In this document: positions 7,822 to 32,430 of the stretch, one piece after another
Position numbering within the stretch: position 1 is the stretch's first letter
Layout of the letters: each line of letters starts with the position of its first letter
Virus record (IMG/VR): IMGVR_UViG_3300045996_000404
Coordinates: 1-32,430 of that record
Strand: one strand, 5' to 3'
Origin: a virus
Length of the DNA: 32,430 nucleotides
Position numbers and translations under genes: made by a program
The notes under the pieces: model-generated
Told to the model about the DNA's origin: nothing
What the model saw: only the letters and a program-made list of their open reading frames with translations
Database searches by the model: none

Positions 7822-7853
7822 AAAAAGGCCCCGACCGTTCCCGGCAGGGGCCT
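7822..7853 (-). terminator. Intrinsic terminator inside the late operon
   Basis: On the minus strand AGGCCCC and GGGGCCT pair over seven bases (7847-7853 with 7826-7832), with a further CCG/CGG inner stem and a GGAA loop, followed by five T residues. It lies between the 486-aa virion protein gene and the tail-fibre gene and ends 16 bases before the fibre ATG, leaving no room for a promoter. Read-through or antitermination is therefore needed for fibre and lysis expression. It shares the TTTTTCATT tail with the terminator at 21806. Confidence 0.75.
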
Positions 7854-21805: not shown

Positions 21806-21828
21806 AAAAAGGGGACCCGAAGGTCCCC
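21806..21828 (-). terminator. Intrinsic terminator after the head genes
   Basis: A perfect seven-base stem GGGGACC/GGTCCCC with a TTCG tetraloop is followed on the minus strand by five T residues (21806-21810). It lies 21 bases after the stop of the 130-aa decoration-like gene and 25 bases before the start of the methyltransferase-glycosyltransferase gene. It would end or lower head-gene transcription, so tail genes would depend on antitermination or partial read-through. Confidence 0.85.
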
Positions 21829-27036: not shown

Positions 27037-29286
27037 TTAGTAGCCTTCGATGGTTTCGCGGGCAGCAATCGCCCTGCCGGTTTCGTCACGCACCAGCGTT
27101 TTGATGCGCGGTGCCTTGATGTGCGTTGTCAGCGAGTCAATCGCCGCCATGAGCTTTTCCAGGCCGATCGTGGTCGCCGGCCCGTCCGACTCAGGGTCGG
27201 TCTTCTCGGGCTTGCTCAGTTGGCTCTGGATGATCCCTGCGGCGAGCTTCATCACTTCCTTGCTCTCCGCGCTCTGTGCTTTGATCTCTTCGAGGCGTTC
27301 GGACAGCAGCGCTTCCATCTGCTTCATGGCGAATTCGTGCTCGACGTTCGGGCCGTTGTCCTGCACCACTTGCGGCGCCTCTGGCTGGAGCACCTGAATG
27401 CGCTTCGTCTCGGCGTCGAACGCCTTCACCTGAAGCTCGCCGTCCTTGGCCTGAAGCTGGAGCTTCGCGGCGGCCAGTTCCTGCATCGCCTCTTGGTGGG
27501 CCTGCTGAAGCTCCTGCATCTGCTGTTGCAGCGCAATGGTTGCGGGATCGTCGGCTTGCTTGAAGAACCGACCGCCGCCCTTGTAGCCGGCCAGGCCGAA
27601 GATTTCGTTGCGGATCGCCTCGGGCTCTGCGTCTGGCATCATCTGCATCGCCTCGCCGTAGGTCTTGAGCACCGCCATGAACCGGCCGAGCTTGGCCTCG
27701 GGGTTGGTAGCGCCCACGCCCACGTTCACGCGCACGGTCAGCGACTGGTTCAGCAGGTCGTCGGTGATCGCGTCGATGCCGTACTTCTGCGAGAGTTCGG
27801 CCTTCTGCCCGGCAAGGCTCAGGATGACGGAATCCGTCTCGTAGGCCTGCTCCAGCTTCACCAGCTGGGTGAGCACCTTCTCCACCCACGTTTCAACGAT
27901 GGTGCGCAGCAGGTATTCGGTCATCTGCGAGGCAGACGAGCCCATCATCTGCATGCCGCCGACCGTCTCGTTGAGCTTGCGGTTGGTCTGGACCGAACCT
28001 TGGCTGAAGTTGCCGGTCAGCTCGTCGTAATCGACGTTCAGCCGGTCTTGCTCCTGGTACGCCGAGCCGGTGACATCAGCCATGTCTACCGGCAGGATGT
28101 CTTCGGCCGGGTTGTTGGCGAGCGTGACGCCACCAGGCACGTTGCGCAGCAGGGAATCGGTATCCACCTGGGCGCCGCGCCTGACGATGTACCGCTTGTT
28201 CAGCACCAACGACACGTTGTCGCGGCGCTGGTTGACCGTCTCGTTGACTTCCTTCTGAAGCTCCGAGCCCATGCCGACGATGGACTCGGGAACCGCCTTG
28301 TGCGCCTCGATGACCGCGCAGCCGATGACAAAAGGCCGCTCGCCGGTCCAATACTCGTCTTCCAGCGGGACTGGATCGGACAGCAGGTGCTGCGTGCCCA
28401 GCGTCCAATACACCACTTCCTTCCCGTTGAGGCGAATGAAGTTCTGGTGGCACCACACCATGTCGTAATCGGTGATGGGCGACTCGGACTCCGACAGCGG
28501 GTCCTGTCCCGGGTTCTCGCGGGATTGGCGGGTCGAGTCCACATCGACCAGCGCTTGGCGGATCTCGCCGTCTTCGAGCGTCTTCCAGCGCTTGTGCCCC
28601 GTCTTGGGGTCGTCTTCCTTCATGCGCTGGCGCACGTCATCGACGTACATGGGCACCATGCGGATGAAGTACGGGCTTGAGCCAACGACATCGGTCCAGT
28701 TGGCGCCCGGGTGGAAGCGGTAGCACTCTGCCGGCAGCAGTTCGATGCAGGGCTTATCGAGCAACACCTCGGGCTCACCCTCAACGGCCAGGATTTCGCC
28801 CTTCTCGTTGGTGAGCGGCTGGCCCATGTCGTCTTTGAGCGGCACCGGCTGGCCCGGGCGCTCCTTGTACAGCCACGACTGGTAGGAGCACACGATGCCG
28901 ATGACTTGCGCCTCTTGCACCGCGCCGATCAGCGTCATGAACCATGGGATGGTCTTCGTCAGCCGGTAGTTGACGATCTCGTTCATGACCGCAGCGGACG
29001 CAACCTGCATCTCGTCGGCGTCGTTCTCGGCCTCGATGCTCACCACGTCCACGTTCGCGAAGAACGCAGCAGCAGCAGCGGCCTCGTTCTTGCGCACGAC
29101 GCTCTTGGTCTTCGGGCGGAACAGGCGCGATCGGTTCTTGAACGCGGCGCTGTTGTACTTCGAGCCGTCAGGGTGCCGCGACTGGAAAAGCGCGATGTTG
29201 CGCTCCCACTTCTTGCGGTGGTTGGCGTCGAGGTAGTTCGTGCTGGACTCGAAGGAGTCGCGGGCGATCTGCAACCAGTCCGTCAC
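27037..29286 (-). CDS. Portal protein
   Basis: A 749-aa portal of the podovirus (P22-like) size class. Features: an N-terminal region KYNSAAFKNRSRLFRPKTKS; the wing/stem region with SVVRKNEAAAAAAFFANVDV; an EVNETVNQRRDNVSLVLNKR segment typical of portals; and a long C-terminal helical barrel region rich in Gln (QQQMQELQQAHQEAMQELAA) ending in a charged tail. It forms the dodecameric ring at one head vertex through which the terminase pumps DNA and to which the tail attaches. It follows terL with two small genes between, and its ATG overlaps the stop of the 114-aa gene. Confidence 0.9.
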   Translation of the reverse strand: MTDWLQIARDSFESSTNYLDANHRKKWERNIALFQSRHPDGSKYNSAAFKNRSRLFRPKTKSVVRKNEAAAAAAFFANVDVVSIEAENDADEMQVASAAVMNEIVNYRLTKTIPWFMTLIGAVQEAQVIGIVCSYQSWLYKERPGQPVPLKDDMGQPLTNEKGEILAVEGEPEVLLDKPCIELLPAECYRFHPGANWTDVVGSSPYFIRMVPMYVDDVRQRMKEDDPKTGHKRWKTLEDGEIRQALVDVDSTRQSRENPGQDPLSESESPITDYDMVWCHQNFIRLNGKEVVYWTLGTQHLLSDPVPLEDEYWTGERPFVIGCAVIEAHKAVPESIVGMGSELQKEVNETVNQRRDNVSLVLNKRYIVRRGAQVDTDSLLRNVPGGVTLANNPAEDILPVDMADVTGSAYQEQDRLNVDYDELTGNFSQGSVQTNRKLNETVGGMQMMGSSASQMTEYLLRTIVETWVEKVLTQLVKLEQAYETDSVILSLAGQKAELSQKYGIDAITDDLLNQSLTVRVNVGVGATNPEAKLGRFMAVLKTYGEAMQMMPDAEPEAIRNEIFGLAGYKGGGRFFKQADDPATIALQQQMQELQQAHQEAMQELAAAKLQLQAKDGELQVKAFDAETKRIQVLQPEAPQVVQDNGPNVEHEFAMKQMEALLSERLEEIKAQSAESKEVMKLAAGIIQSQLSKPEKTDPESDGPATTIGLEKLMAAIDSLTTHIKAPRIKTLVRDETGRAIAARETIEGY

Positions 29287-29627
29287 AGCAGCCTCATCCC
29301 AGCCATGTCCTTGTCGGGGATGCCCTCGACACGGGTCACCACGTCATCGGTCTTGGTGCCGCGGCGCAGGTTTGCCCGCTCCAAGAATTCGCCAGCAGCG
29401 CGCAGCAGCGAACGCTTGCGGTCCTGCGCGTCACCCTTGATCTGCGTGTAGTGCAGCACCATGCCCCACTTGTCGGACAGGTCGAGGTCTTTCACTTGGA
29501 CGACGCCGCCCTTGACCACGACGAACCATCCGTGGCCGGGGTAGGCCAGGCACAGGTCGCTGACCATCTGCCCGGCCATCGCCTCGTCACTGGCGTGCTC
29601 GCAGTCGAAACCGACGATGTTGGTCAT
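29283..29627 (-). CDS. Hypothetical phage protein (114 aa)
   Basis: A 114-aa protein starting MTNIVGFDCEHASDEAMAGQ. It is compact with a central GHGWFVVVKGGVVQVKDLDL and a basic helical C-terminus (RKRSLLRAAGEFLERANLRR). Its ATG overlaps the stop of the 43-aa gene, and its stop overlaps the portal start (ATGA on both sides). Conserved-looking small protein between terminase and portal; I do not recognise a domain. A role in packaging or head assembly is only inferred from position. Confidence 0.65.
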   Translation of the reverse strand: MTNIVGFDCEHASDEAMAGQMVSDLCLAYPGHGWFVVVKGGVVQVKDLDLSDKWGMVLHYTQIKGDAQDRKRSLLRAAGEFLERANLRRGTKTDDVVTRVEGIPDKDMAGMRLL

Positions 29628-29755
29628 TCGTTAGCCTTACGCCATTGCGCCACCGACCACGCCAGGGCGAGGTCAAACAGGTAGCCGTTTTTGCTGTCAG
29701 GTGAGCCTTCGACACACCACACACCGGAGCGATAGACCAGGCGCGGCTTAGTCAA
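29624..29755 (-). CDS. Small hypothetical protein with TTG start (43 aa)
   Basis: A 43-residue frame joining terL to the next gene. It starts TTG at 29755, overlapping the terL stop by eight bases, with an excellent GGAGAG ribosome site five bases upstream inside the terL end, and it ends TGA overlapping the ATG of the 114-aa gene. The protein (MTKPRLVYRSGVWCVEGS..., then GYLFDLALAWSVAQWRKANE) has an amphipathic helix at its C-terminus. Very short proteins with a 'GVW.V.G' turn occur between terminase and portal in related phages. Function unknown. Confidence 0.6.
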   Translation of the reverse strand: MTKPRLVYRSGVWCVEGSPDSKNGYLFDLALAWSVAQWRKANE

Positions 29756-31265
29756 TGAAGCTCTCCGGTTCCAGCGCGTCGCTGAAGTCGCTGGCATCGG
29801 GCCAGATCAGCGGGCGCTCGGGCTCGATCAGCCGGGAGAAGCCGTCCAGCATGTCGTCGTGGATCGCGACCGGGAACGGCTTGTATTCCTGCTGGATGAA
29901 GACTTGCGTCAGGTCTTCGCTCTTGCCCTGGTAGTCGGTGTAGTAGTGCGTGCGCGGCAGGTACACCCTGCCTTGCTCGAAGTACGGCACCAACCGCTTG
30001 ATCCGCTCATTCTTCGGCGTCGTGCCGCCCACCTCGAAGATGTCGAAGCGGTAGTTCTGCTGCTTCTGCACCTCTTGGATGTGCTCGATGTCGGCCTGCA
30101 TGCCGATCTTTTCGTAGCGCACCTCCAGCGGCTTCCACTTGCGGTGCCACCTCATCACCAGCGCAGCCCGCTGGGTCAGGTTCAGCCGGTCGCGCACCAT
30201 CTCCAGCACGTACAGGTTCTGGTCGGGGGCTAGCCCCACCACCCAGCCCGAGGTGTAGTCACTGCGCTTGTTCTTCGCGCCTGCCGGGTCGAACAGCAGG
30301 TAGACGTTCATCCCCATGCGGGTGAAGCCGTCGTGGTACTTGAGCCACTGCTCCTTGAAGCCCTGCGTCTCGTCGGCCTGTGGGTTTTGCAGCATCTGGC
30401 AGGCGAAGATGTAAGGCCCCATGTCCTTGCGCTTGCCCTGCACCCACTCCGCGCTTCTGAGGACCGGCTCGCCAGTGGCGGTGCCGTCCTTGGTCAGCAG
30501 GTGAATGCGGGGCTTGGCCGTGCCCGCGTCAATGACTTCCTTGTAGGCGTCGTTGGCGTGGTACCGGGTGCCGATGAACCGCCGCGCACCGCCATCCGCT
30601 CCCAGCGCATAGCTGAGCTTGAGCATGTCGCCGGTCTTCTGGATCATGTCCGGGGTGGTCACGCTCTCGGGCACCACCACGTCGTCGTAGATCAGCAGCG
30701 GGAAGTGCTTGCCGATGGGCTGGCCGTCCACCACGCCCCACGCTTCCACGGTCGCCTCGGCCGGGTTGCTCTTGCGCCGGACAACGATGCCGTCGTCCTC
30801 GCTCCACTTGGGACTCTGCTTCTGCGGGTTGTCCCACAGCACATCCGGGAACCACTCCTTGAGCTTCCCGTTGCTCTCGAACTCGAACTTGATCTGTCTG
30901 AGGAACCGCTTGGCGATGCCGCGGGAGTGGCTGAAGATGCCGACGCACACCTCGCGGTCCACCAGCGCCCCGTCGCCATGGCTCGCCAGGATGTCCTGGA
31001 TGGTCTTGGCGTAGGTGATGATCGCGGACTTGTAGTGCTCCCGGCTCCACAGGTCGAGGTAGCCATCGGGCTGGGCCTCCACCTCCCGGCAGCGGTCATA
31101 GATCCACTGGTGCTCGGCGTCCTTGCGGTTCAGGACGTAGCGCAGGAGGAAGTAGAGGTCAGTCCTGCACAGGTGGCGGGCTGATGGGATCACCAGCTCC
31201 GGCGCGCAGTCCATCCAGAAAGCGTGCAGTCTCCGCTGGTAGTCGGTGAGTGTGGTCGTGCTCAA
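29748..31265 (-). CDS. terL: Terminase large subunit
   Basis: A 505-aa DNA-packaging ATPase and nuclease. The Walker A-like loop WSREHYKS (73-80) and Walker B LLIYDD (190-195) mark the ATPase. Then come the RRFIGTRYHANDAYKE coupling region and a C-terminal RNase H-like nuclease, with acidic residues in VYLLFDPAG (Asp326), NKRSDYTSG (Asp336) and AIHDDMLDG (Asp470, Asp471, Asp474). I use the TTG at 31265, which overlaps the small-subunit gene by 107 bases. An ATG at 31214 is an alternative that removes 17 residues but still overlaps. It would cut concatemeric DNA and pump it through the portal. Confidence 0.93.
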   Translation of the reverse strand: MSTTTLTDYQRRLHAFWMDCAPELVIPSARHLCRTDLYFLLRYVLNRKDAEHQWIYDRCREVEAQPDGYLDLWSREHYKSAIITYAKTIQDILASHGDGALVDREVCVGIFSHSRGIAKRFLRQIKFEFESNGKLKEWFPDVLWDNPQKQSPKWSEDDGIVVRRKSNPAEATVEAWGVVDGQPIGKHFPLLIYDDVVVPESVTTPDMIQKTGDMLKLSYALGADGGARRFIGTRYHANDAYKEVIDAGTAKPRIHLLTKDGTATGEPVLRSAEWVQGKRKDMGPYIFACQMLQNPQADETQGFKEQWLKYHDGFTRMGMNVYLLFDPAGAKNKRSDYTSGWVVGLAPDQNLYVLEMVRDRLNLTQRAALVMRWHRKWKPLEVRYEKIGMQADIEHIQEVQKQQNYRFDIFEVGGTTPKNERIKRLVPYFEQGRVYLPRTHYYTDYQGKSEDLTQVFIQQEYKPFPVAIHDDMLDGFSRLIEPERPLIWPDASDFSDALEPESFID

Positions 31266-31470
31266 TGGGTCCGCCGCCTTCGCCGGTCAACTCCACCGCC
31301 GACAAGTCCGGGACGCTCTTGCGCAACAGGATCTCAATCGCCTTCATGCGGGTGGGAGTGATCTCTCCGTCCCCGCTAAGTGCATGATCCTGCAGGACAT
31401 TTATGAGCTGACTCGCCTGGATCTTGGCGCGGATGTCCTCTTGGTGGAGTTTGTTCAGGCGTGCAGCCAT
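31159..31470 (-). CDS. terS: Terminase small subunit (putative)
   Basis: A 103-aa protein immediately upstream of terL. Residues 1-60 (RLNKLHQEDIRAKIQASQLI, then MKAIEILLRKSVPDLSAVEL) are helical and match a group of small DNA-packaging proteins with 'HQ..IR.KIQ.SQLI..L..H.......PT...A..ILL.K..PDL...E..G..GG'. In packaging it recognises the pac or cos site and recruits the large subunit. Its last third (residues 69-103) is encoded over the start of terL (107-base overlap). About 400 bases of leader with strong inverted repeats precede it; a pac site could lie there or inside the gene. Confidence 0.75.
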   Translation of the reverse strand: MAARLNKLHQEDIRAKIQASQLINVLQDHALSGDGEITPTRMKAIEILLRKSVPDLSAVELTGEGGGPIEHDHTHRLPAETARFLDGLRAGAGDPISPPPVQD

Positions 31471-31513
31471 AGCTTGTGTCCGCCCGAGGGTAGGACCGTT
31501 GGTTGGGTTGTGG

Positions 31514-31613
31514 GCTCATCGAGGGGCGCCGCACGTCTCCCCGCTGCTATGCGCAATAGCAGCCGCGCCCACGTTCCGCCCTGCGCTGGGTCGGCTTTGG
31601 GTTCTCGATGAGC
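31514..31613. other. Nested inverted repeats, candidate structured RNA or packaging site
   Basis: In the 404-base stretch 31471-31874 without a convincing gene, three inverted repeats are nested. GCTCATCGAG (31514-31523) pairs with CTCGATGAGC (31604-31613), ten perfect bases. GGGCGC (31524-31529) pairs with GCGCCC (31565-31570). GCTGCTAT (31543-31550) pairs with ATAGCAGC (31556-31563) around a five-base loop. Either strand could fold. Just beyond, on the plus strand, is a small terminator (31627-31645). It lies between the leader terminator and terS, so it may be a terS leader structure, a plus-strand RNA, or a pac site. Confidence 0.5.
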
Positions 31614-31626
31614 GTTTGGGATGCCC

Positions 31627-31645
31627 AGCCGTCTAGCGGCTTTTT
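31627..31645 (+). terminator. Short plus-strand terminator-like hairpin
   Basis: AGCCG (31627-31631) and CGGCT (31637-31641) pair around loop TCTAG, and the run of T at 31641-31645 follows on the plus strand. It reads as a weak rho-independent terminator directed away from the late operon, which would suit an RNA made from the nested repeats at 31514-31613. The stem is only five bases and no promoter was found for it. Confidence 0.4.
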
Positions 31646-31688
31646 GTAGGACTGAGGTCGCGGCAACTGCGAGTCGCTGCGGCTGGGC

Positions 31689-31724
31689 AAGAGAAAGCCC
31701 GCCGAGATTGCTCCGGGCGGGCTT
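31689..31724 (-). terminator. Leader terminator of the late operon (tR'-like)
   Basis: On the minus strand AAGCCCGCC and GGCGGGCTT (31716-31724 with 31695-31703) form a perfect nine-base stem around a 12-base loop, followed by TCTCTT. It lies about 188 bases downstream of the start site predicted from the promoter at 31889-31917 and before terS. Without antitermination, transcription would give only a short leader RNA. This is the position of lambda tR' relative to pR'. Confidence 0.75.
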
Positions 31725-31874
31725 GTGTTGGGTGATGCCCCTGCTTCCCCATCGTAGCCAGCTCGGGGGAATGTCGAAGTGCTGGCCTACACCGCCAATC
31801 TCATGGGCATCGTGAGGCGGGAACGATCTGTCGGCTCCGCCTGCCCTACGGCATGCGAAAGCCACTAGTTTTGA

Positions 31875-32288
31875 CTAGGATTCGCGCGAGCCTAACACAG
31901 ATTCTTCGCGCCGGCAAGATGTATTTTTCAACATCGACCGCGCGTCATGCACCAGCTCGCACAGGTCCGGCCGGCTCATCCCGAACGCCCGGCATGCCTT
32001 GTTCACGCTGATGAACGAATATCGGTACGACCATTGCAGCGCCCACCTGTGCTTCTCTGGGATGTGCACGAACAGCTTTTGCAGCGCAACAGCGTCCAGC
32101 GTGTCGATGGGCGTTCCCCCGCCTGCCAGCTCGTGGTAGCCGTCCGGGCGGTAGTTCTGGAACATGGGGAGCATCCCGCCTCCGCCTCGCCCTCCCCTTG
32201 CCCATCGCGCCCAATTGCAGAGACGCTCGTGGATCTCGGCGTGAGCAGTCCGAACCGCGAAGAAATCGACGGGGTCACGTCCGCTCAT
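31875..32288 (-). CDS. Putative Q-type antiterminator / HTH regulatory protein (137 aa)
   Basis: A 137-aa protein beginning MSGRDPVDFFAVRTAHAEIH at ATG 32288; sequence upstream in this frame belongs to the previous gene. Residues about 85-130 (ALQKLFVHIPEKHRWALQWS, then SVNKACRAFGMSRPDLCELV) have the helix-turn-helix layout of sigma region 4-like or late-regulator proteins. The C-terminus is basic. It is the last gene before the terminase block. A sigma70-like promoter sits in its 3' end and a terminator lies about 190 bases beyond, the arrangement of lambda Q, pR' and tR'. That context is the main reason for calling it an antiterminator; sequence alone supports only a DNA-binding phage regulator. 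A glycine/arginine-rich stretch (WARGGRGGGGM) is at residues 30-40. Confidence 0.6.
   Translation of the reverse strand: MSGRDPVDFFAVRTAHAEIHERLCNWARWARGGRGGGGMLPMFQNYRPDGYHELAGGGTPIDTLDAVALQKLFVHIPEKHRWALQWSYRYSFISVNKACRAFGMSRPDLCELVHDARSMLKNTSCRREESVLGSRES
31882..31917 (-). promoter_or_regulatory. Predicted sigma70-like late promoter (pR'-like)
   Basis: Minus strand: -35 TTGCCG (31912-31917), a spacer of exactly 17 bases, and extended -10 TGT-TAGGCT (hexamer 31889-31894); the likely start is A at 31882. It lies inside the 3' end of the putative antiterminator gene and points to terS. Just downstream a small inverted repeat CTAGT-TTTG-ACTAG (31864-31877) covers the gene's stop. A Q-binding element would be expected here, but no specific sequence can be named. 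Confidence 0.55.
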
Positions 32289-32430
32289 GTAGTTCCTTTT
32301 CAAGTCGCTTAATCCACGCCCACACCAGCGTCCGCCCCTTGGCATAGTCCTCGCGGTTGGGCCACACCCTGCGCATGACACCTTGGATCGCCTGCGGGTC
32401 TGCCTCGCGCCTGTGGGCCTCAGGGCCTTG
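32275..32430 (-). CDS. Partial gene: small phage protein, 5' end outside or near the edge
   Basis: An open frame running in from the right edge of the window (51 codons visible) to TGA 32275-32277. It ends with MRRVWPNREDYAKGRTLVWA, then WIKRLEKELHERT, and overlaps the antiterminator ATG by 14 bases. The ATG at 32376, with AAGG a few bases upstream, could be the true start, giving a complete 33-aa protein; otherwise the gene is cut by the window. Basic, helical and Trp-containing. I do not recognise it. Tight overlap suggests it is co-transcribed with the regulator. Confidence 0.5.
   Translation of the reverse strand, partial: QGPEAHRREADPQAIQGVMRRVWPNREDYAKGRTLVWAWIKRLEKELHERT

Follow-up and report, generated by a model that had tools for sequence, protein, structure and literature searches.

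A putative Q-type late-gene switch with a conserved two-stem-loop leader RNA at the end of a viral record

The locus and its Q-like protein

The window, by which we mean the whole stretch of DNA analysed here, is IMG/VR record IMGVR_UViG_3300045996_000404 with a length of 32,430 nucleotides. The module occupies the extreme end of this record, on the minus strand, and the genes upstream of P0001 fall outside the record. The module and the late operon comprise the following features:

31875..32288, minus strand: P0001, putative Q-like antiterminator gene, 137 aa (ORF, homologues, fold model)
31901..31931, minus strand: alternative, overlapping promoter TTGAAA-N19-AAGAAT, with a higher PWM score than TTGCCG/TAGGCT
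31889..31917, minus strand: putative late promoter, -35 TTGCCG (31917-31912), 17-base spacer, extended -10 TGT-TAGGCT (sequence, aligned relatives)
31865..31878, minus strand: leader stem-loop 1, CUAGU-CAAA-ACUAG (fold, co-varying pairs in seven loci)
31830..31864, minus strand: linker U and stem-loop 2 (GGCUUUCGCAUGCC-GUAG-GGCAGGCGGAGCC), then GAC (fold, covariation in seven loci, covariance models R1 and R2)
31695..31724, minus strand: leader terminator, perfect 9-bp stem, tail TTCTCTTG (fold energy, conservation)
31159..31470, minus strand: presumed small terminase subunit gene (terS), 103-aa ORF, assigned only by its position before terL
29748..31265, minus strand: large terminase gene terL (phrog_38, E 1e-53; PF17289, 5e-6)
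21811..21828, minus strand: internal terminator candidate in the late operon (terminator scan)
7827..7852, minus strand: internal terminator candidate in the late operon, between two long ORFs (terminator scan)

The first firmly identified gene of the late operon is terL. For the 103-aa ORF at 31470..31159, searches of family libraries gave no convincing match. The top three minus-strand terminator sites of the window are 7852-7827, 21828-21811 and 31722-31697, and the two internal terminators that a preliminary description of this DNA had proposed are present as strong candidates at the first two of these sites.

P0001 consists of an N-terminal segment with the pattern L..W..W...G(R), a middle loop region and a C-terminal HTH resembling sigma region 4. 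No Pfam or NCBIfam family matched it, and the PF06530 profile gave no match in P0001, L018Q or P0002 in the Pfam search. Comparison of P0001 with PDB sequences returned nothing useful, and the isolated-phage collection held no relative of P0001, P0002 or the Q-like protein of locus L153 (best chance matches E 0.2 and 1). The best PHROG is phrog_19609, annotated as of unknown function (E 0.029 for P0001, 0.0074 for L018 and 2.7e-5 for L003), in agreement with the earlier suggestion of a poorly described antiterminator family. Close relatives of the window were obtained by a terL search of IMG/VR (L002, L003 and L004, later L018). Homologues of P0001 are present in L018 (60-63% identity) and L003 (about 40%); the L002 record starts inside one and holds a fragment, and the L004 record begins too near terS for the module to be judged.

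A three-sequence profile of the P0001 family, A5, gave one good match over 399 Burkholderiales genomes, L101 (E 6.4e-7). This homologue matches phrog_79, 'anti-termination protein Q-like' (1.5e-4), and phrog_19609 (1.3e-3), and appears to connect the P0001 family weakly to phrog_79. Weak matches of A5 numbered 10 and 3 over 399 and 369 genomes; L100, L101, L102, L103, L104 and L109 were kept as Q-like after reading, and L105-L108, L110-L113 and L099 were dropped. The Q-like ORF of L102 (1474-2046, plus strand), from Burkholderiales, contains a CxxC...CxxC insertion in the loop region, recalling the zinc finger reported for lambda Q. PF06530 was found in none of 150 Burkholderiales genomes. With hhalign, A5 aligned with ten PF06530 Q proteins on the N-terminal L..W..W segment at E 0.0015 and a probability of only 17, compared with 0.7 for a control alignment of A5 with terL. 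A profile search against Q families, the check proposed in the preliminary description, thus yielded no Pfam or NCBIfam family but the marginal links through L101 and hhalign.

In the AF2 model, which is based on three sequences, residues 68-126 have a pLDDT of about 73-82 and residues 1-67 one under 50. A structure search with VIA matched residues 62-126 with sigma region 4 (Z 8-9), and the C-terminal half of P0001 is accordingly modelled as sigma region 4, as in 21Q. Such a fold is not specific to Q, region 4 being common among sigma factors. 21Q and AlpA are absent among the structural matches listed for the P0001 model, an absence that proves nothing. In the available part of the respective accounts, H3-H6 of 21Q form a sigma-region-4-like fold (PMC6606751), and AlpA, though not akin in sequence, folds like Q (PMC9371919). 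By profile, P0001 falls outside PF06530. Still, the view that it works like 21Q or AlpA, its activity being predicted, is well supported, as the modelled C-terminal fold is the one described for 21Q and AlpA is Q-like without kinship in sequence.

Promoter, leader terminator and the recurrence of their order

A promoter inside the 3' end of the gene had been proposed before, and TTGCCG, a 17-base spacer and the extended -10 TAGGCT are indeed found there and align with the relatives. The -10 lies at 31894-31889 with TGT just before it, and the presumed start is near 31882. The two hexamers are weak by themselves (7 of 12 consensus bases), and a sigma-70 scan of 29000-32430 reported no site. TTGAAA-N19-AAGAAT starts 13 bases upstream of the TTGCCG/TAGGCT pair and overlaps it; by inspection, it is not conserved in relatives. 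At the aligned place, L018, L002 and L003 carry TTGACA-N18-GACACT or TTGCAT-N18-CAGAAT, and in all three TGN precedes the -10. We prefer TTGCCG/TAGGCT because it is the pair to which these close relatives align, with the TGN in common. For Q, a binding site in the promoter spacer is to be expected; the spacers of the four close relatives show no obvious common word by eye, while 21Q has a direct-repeat binding site. Behind the -10, CGCG..AATC is conserved in the window (31886-31878, minus strand), L002, L003 and L018 and could serve as the -10-like pause sequence or belong to the start region.

From the start at about 31882 to the end of the terminator stem the leader measures 188 nt. The nine-base stem claimed about 188 bases on and before terS was confirmed as a perfect 9-bp stem, terS being placed by position. 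Folded alone, the stem reaches -20.6 kcal/mol (z -3.2 versus shuffles), and its T-run (TTCTCTTG) is poor. A standard terminator scan of 29000-32430 did not list the stem at 31724-31695 because its loop exceeds the 8 bases allowed. The leader terminator of L018 is 94% identical to that of the window over 35 bases, and the rest of the leader has diverged. A terminator core is common to the window, L002 and L123. This core, GCCCGCCCGGAGCAATCTYGGCGGGY, was found in seven stretches, among which the Q-like modules are L123, L124, L128 and L002; L124 and L128 repeat the L018 module or contig. The idea that the core is specific to the module was rejected, as L125-L127 use it as an ordinary intergenic terminator. 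In L125, L126 and L127, phages that seem unrelated, it separates genes and has a CGGAGCAATCT loop, in up to several copies, as if the terminator with this loop were exchanged or favoured among phages.

The combination of promoter and terminator was evaluated by a pair score in which both are scored together with a sigma-70 matrix and terminator weights of our own. The 420 bases at the end of P0001 score 24.6, the best pair in the window, and 1 of 306 control windows on both strands, some of which overlap the module itself, scored as high; this top score rested on TTGAAA-N19-AAGAAT (31931-31901) and not on TTGCCG/TAGGCT. In L018 the order is kept, with the promoter TTGACA-N18-GACACT inside the 3' end of the Q gene (1 of 110 control windows). 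L003 and L002 have small ORFs between Q gene and promoter. For these two and for L097 the test window was placed after seeing the leader and not at the Q stop, and the result was 2 of 96 control windows for L003, 4 of 40 for L002 and, after a different Q-like ORF, 1 of 126 for L097. Further Q-like ORFs came from L044, L053 and L059 (upstream of more distant terL genes or in other records) and from L123; L096 and L097 were picked by eye. The pair test gave 1 of 124 control windows for L059, 1 of 78 for L123, 2 of 88 for L053 and 2 of 124 for L044; L096 failed it (23 of 36). The order gene, promoter, terminator also occurs in L140, L153 and L165, again with different Q-like genes. Since it recurs after different Q-like genes, comparison supports the reading as Q gene, late promoter and leader terminator.

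When 82 related terL loci were screened with a profile of Q-like ORFs, 75 showed no such ORF ahead of terL; the upstream sequence was 1.5 kb or longer in 62 of the 82 and under 1.5 kb in 20. The seven loci with such an ORF are the seeds of the searching profile itself. Phages without a Q-like ORF at this place may rely on another form of control or carry the gene at a different site.

Two arrangements were observed in addition. In L123 (422-900, reverse strand), with an unrelated large terminase, a different Q-like ORF is followed by the terminator core of the window, without the two-stem-loop element described below. In L059 (3970-4110) and L053 (440-570), both AT-rich terL relatives, a near-consensus promoter lies directly at the stop of the Q-like ORF and is followed by a short leader and a strong terminator, a textbook module of another Q subfamily.

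Two stem-loops in the leader

Beyond what the preliminary description had noted, the leader RNA is structured. When the first 60-90 nt are folded, 31878-31830 on the minus strand forms two adjacent stem-loops with 1 nt between them, and the leaders of L018, L002 and L003 fold likewise. In folds of 120 nt or more of the window leader, the minimum-energy pairing replaces stem-loop 2, which is why stem-loop 2 is best supported for the nascent 60-90 nt. An attenuator switching between two folds was considered and dropped: there is no sign of it, because the terminator stem forms regardless in the 195-nt fold of the window.

Searches for the element extended it to further loci. A pattern for the 3' arm of stem-loop 2 occurred in 24 stretches of viral DNA; L124, L128 and L002 were already known, L140 was new and real, and the other 20 were judged from their context to be chance. 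In L140, terL and a Q-like ORF lie upstream of the element, and the extended -10 TGG-CACACT, stem-loop 1, the linker, stem-loop 2 and a strong terminator are followed by a portal gene. R1, a covariance model from four leaders, listed 11 matches in 10 of 399 genomes, one of them real (L153); the other 10 were judged to lie in genes. In L153 the stop of the Q-like gene falls within the spacer of the promoter TTGACG-N17-CAGGAT, followed by both stem-loops, a terminator and an HNH gene, with ORFs reading as small and large terminase further downstream. Its E value is 4.9e-4 per genome, with 399 genomes searched; we accepted L153 because of its context, as the score alone would not carry it. R2, a second model, gave 20 and 8 matches over 329 and 312 genomes, the real ones being L153 again and L165, where TTGCAA-N17-CATAAT spans the stop of a Q-like ORF and both stem-loops and a terminator are present. 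Inspection of R2 covered 21 full-length matches, with 6 partial ones outside it, and 20 of the 21 were rejected since they lie in long open frames without the module. In L153 and L165 the terminators were called by eye, as were the terminase labels in L153.

Seven distinct loci therefore carry the element: the window, L018, L002, L003, L140, L153 and L165. A Q-like gene lies upstream in all seven (a fragment in L002) and a terminator downstream in all seven; an extended -10 precedes the element in six, L165 lacking an exact TGN. None of these three features was part of any search for the element. In all viral instances the distance from the -10 to the start of stem-loop 1 is no more than about 20 nt, and in four of five it is 8-10 nt. 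In a MAFFT alignment of five leaders, not fitted to structure, 7 of 17 pairs have changed on both sides and 88.8% of cells pair (0 of 500 shuffles). The alignment of seven leaders fitted to the model has 11 of 17 pairs changed on both sides and 94.7% pairing, compared with 28-38% when partners are slid, and 0 of 500 shuffles reach its score; this alignment leans to structure, L153 and L165 were found with the model, and seven sequences are few.

The genes downstream differ among the loci (terS/terL, HNH then terminases, or portal), and the element therefore seems to travel with Q and not with the packaging genes. L140, L153 and L165 encode Q-like proteins of a second subfamily, A14, which aligns with A5 over 94 columns (E 0.0002) and with PF06530 (0.006). 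No match above the gathering score was obtained in Rfam 15 for the window and the six other loci, and in the open-licence PMC literature, of which our coverage is incomplete, we found no account of a Q leader that contains a conserved RNA structure. From the aligned sequences, there is good support for an undescribed RNA structure, made of two stem-loops, in leaders of Q-type switches, and the comparison suggests that the element is a structured RNA part of the Q-type late switch.

The proposed switch, its alternatives and known systems

Comparison among loci supports the existence of the gene family, the order in which the parts stand, and the two stem-loops, which recur next to Q-like genes. 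We consider it probable that the module is a Q-type late-gene switch in which read-through at the leader and internal terminators depends on P0001 and of which the stem-loops are a part. DNA binding, loading, read-through, control of the internal terminators and any role of the RNA are what we infer, in the following way. Transcription would start constitutively from the late promoter at the 3' end of P0001 and stop about 188 nt on, at the leader terminator. Once P0001 has accumulated, its sigma-region-4-like C-terminal domain would bind the promoter spacer and the protein would load onto RNA polymerase soon after initiation, its N-terminal segment sitting in the RNA exit channel. The polymerase modified in this way would pass the leader terminator and likewise the two terminators farther down the late operon. 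Within its first approximately 50 nt, the leader would provide two stem-loops belonging to the switch, the likeliest role of which would be to act on the elongation complex or the leader RNA just after Q has loaded.

P0001 could instead be a late activator or small sigma-like factor that stimulates initiation, as RinA, ArpU and ECF sigma factors do, with the hairpin before terS serving as an ordinary boundary terminator. Its sole well-modelled domain is sigma region 4, and weak hexamers are what would be expected of an activated promoter. However, if nothing read through it, a terminator placed between a promoter and the operon it serves would make no sense, and this order recurs with different Q-like genes; near-consensus promoters in several relatives (L059, L097) need no activator, and the link to phrog_79 points away from such a factor as well. 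We regard this explanation as unlikely. Coincidence or coding constraint in GC-rich DNA as the source of promoter, hairpins and terminator is less probable still and already disfavoured: the weak hexamers and the many chance matches inside genes (20 of the 24 pattern stretches belonging neither to the relatives nor to L140, and most model matches) would fit it, but both stems show compensatory changes (0 of 500 shuffles; 28-38% in slid controls versus 94.7%), the terminator is conserved, and L140, L153 and L165 carry a Q-like gene, a promoter and a terminator that had not been sought.

A more serious competitor, though one we would not favour, leaves the switch in place and gives the two stem-loops a function outside antitermination, either as a 5' stabiliser of the late mRNA or because the terminated leader is a regulatory small RNA. 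Stem-loop 1 would cap the 5' end of the RNA because it starts within about 20 nt of the -10, and small RNAs that are terminated Q leaders are known, such as lambda 6S. A general stabiliser would need no Q, yet the element stands beside Q-like genes in 7 of 7 loci even though the downstream genes differ; this company is weak evidence, because phages swap modules. A role within the Q-type switch could go as far as a new class of phage antitermination RNA that acts with a Q-like protein and is common to different Q subfamilies and packaging genes. It would be a cis RNA of Q leaders that binds the polymerase or the Q leaving the exit channel and makes late transcription resistant to terminators. 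We put this forward tentatively and think it rather doubtful.

Most phage late regulators have no assigned function, and the best PHROG here is itself of 'unknown function'. The conserved order of gene, promoter at its 3' end and leader terminator recognises such proteins by place and not by sequence.

The layout resembles lambda Q/pR'/tR' in the order of its parts and in a leader of similar length, 188 nt compared with the 194 nt of the lambda leader RNA (6S). The comparison with a lambda-like Q-pR'-tR' module made in the preliminary description holds for this layout, which is real and recurs in relatives. The protein, which that description had called not obviously lambda Q, is nearer to phage 21 Q or AlpA than to lambda Q: P0001 shows no sequence match to lambda Q and, by inspection, no zinc-finger CxxC pairs. 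Unlike in lambda, DNA packaging genes and not lysis genes come first in the late operon of the window.

With phage 21 Q (PF06530, phrog_79), P0001 shares a small size, the aromatic N-terminal L..W..W..G segment, a C-terminal sigma-region-4-like fold and a gene just before its promoter and leader terminator, as far as the available part of the account goes (PMC6606751). It differs in having no Pfam match and marginal profile similarity (E 0.0015, probability 17), and in the conserved leader stem-loops of the window, which that part of the account does not describe for 21Q (PMC6606751). AlpA of Pseudomonas aeruginosa (alpA/ABE/tB) is an antiterminator without sequence kin; in the available portions of the reports its binding site lies between the -35 and the -10, and it overcomes an intrinsic terminator that follows closely, and P0001 is likened to it by this description, although AlpA controls lysis genes of a chromosomal element (PMC9371919, PMC7969949).

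R1 gave no match up to E 10 over positions 26000-40751 of HK022, the phage whose put elements resemble the leader RNA in form. According to the accessible text on HK022, put comprises about 70 nt with two stem-loops, putL lies just behind its promoter, and put serves early operons and acts without a phage protein (PMC9378689). Like put (PMC9378689), the leader element follows a promoter directly and packs two adjacent stem-loops into about 50-70 nt, but, unlike at put, a Q-like protein gene adjoins it. Should the stem-loops take part, a single switch would combine antitermination led by a protein (Q) with antitermination led by an RNA (put).
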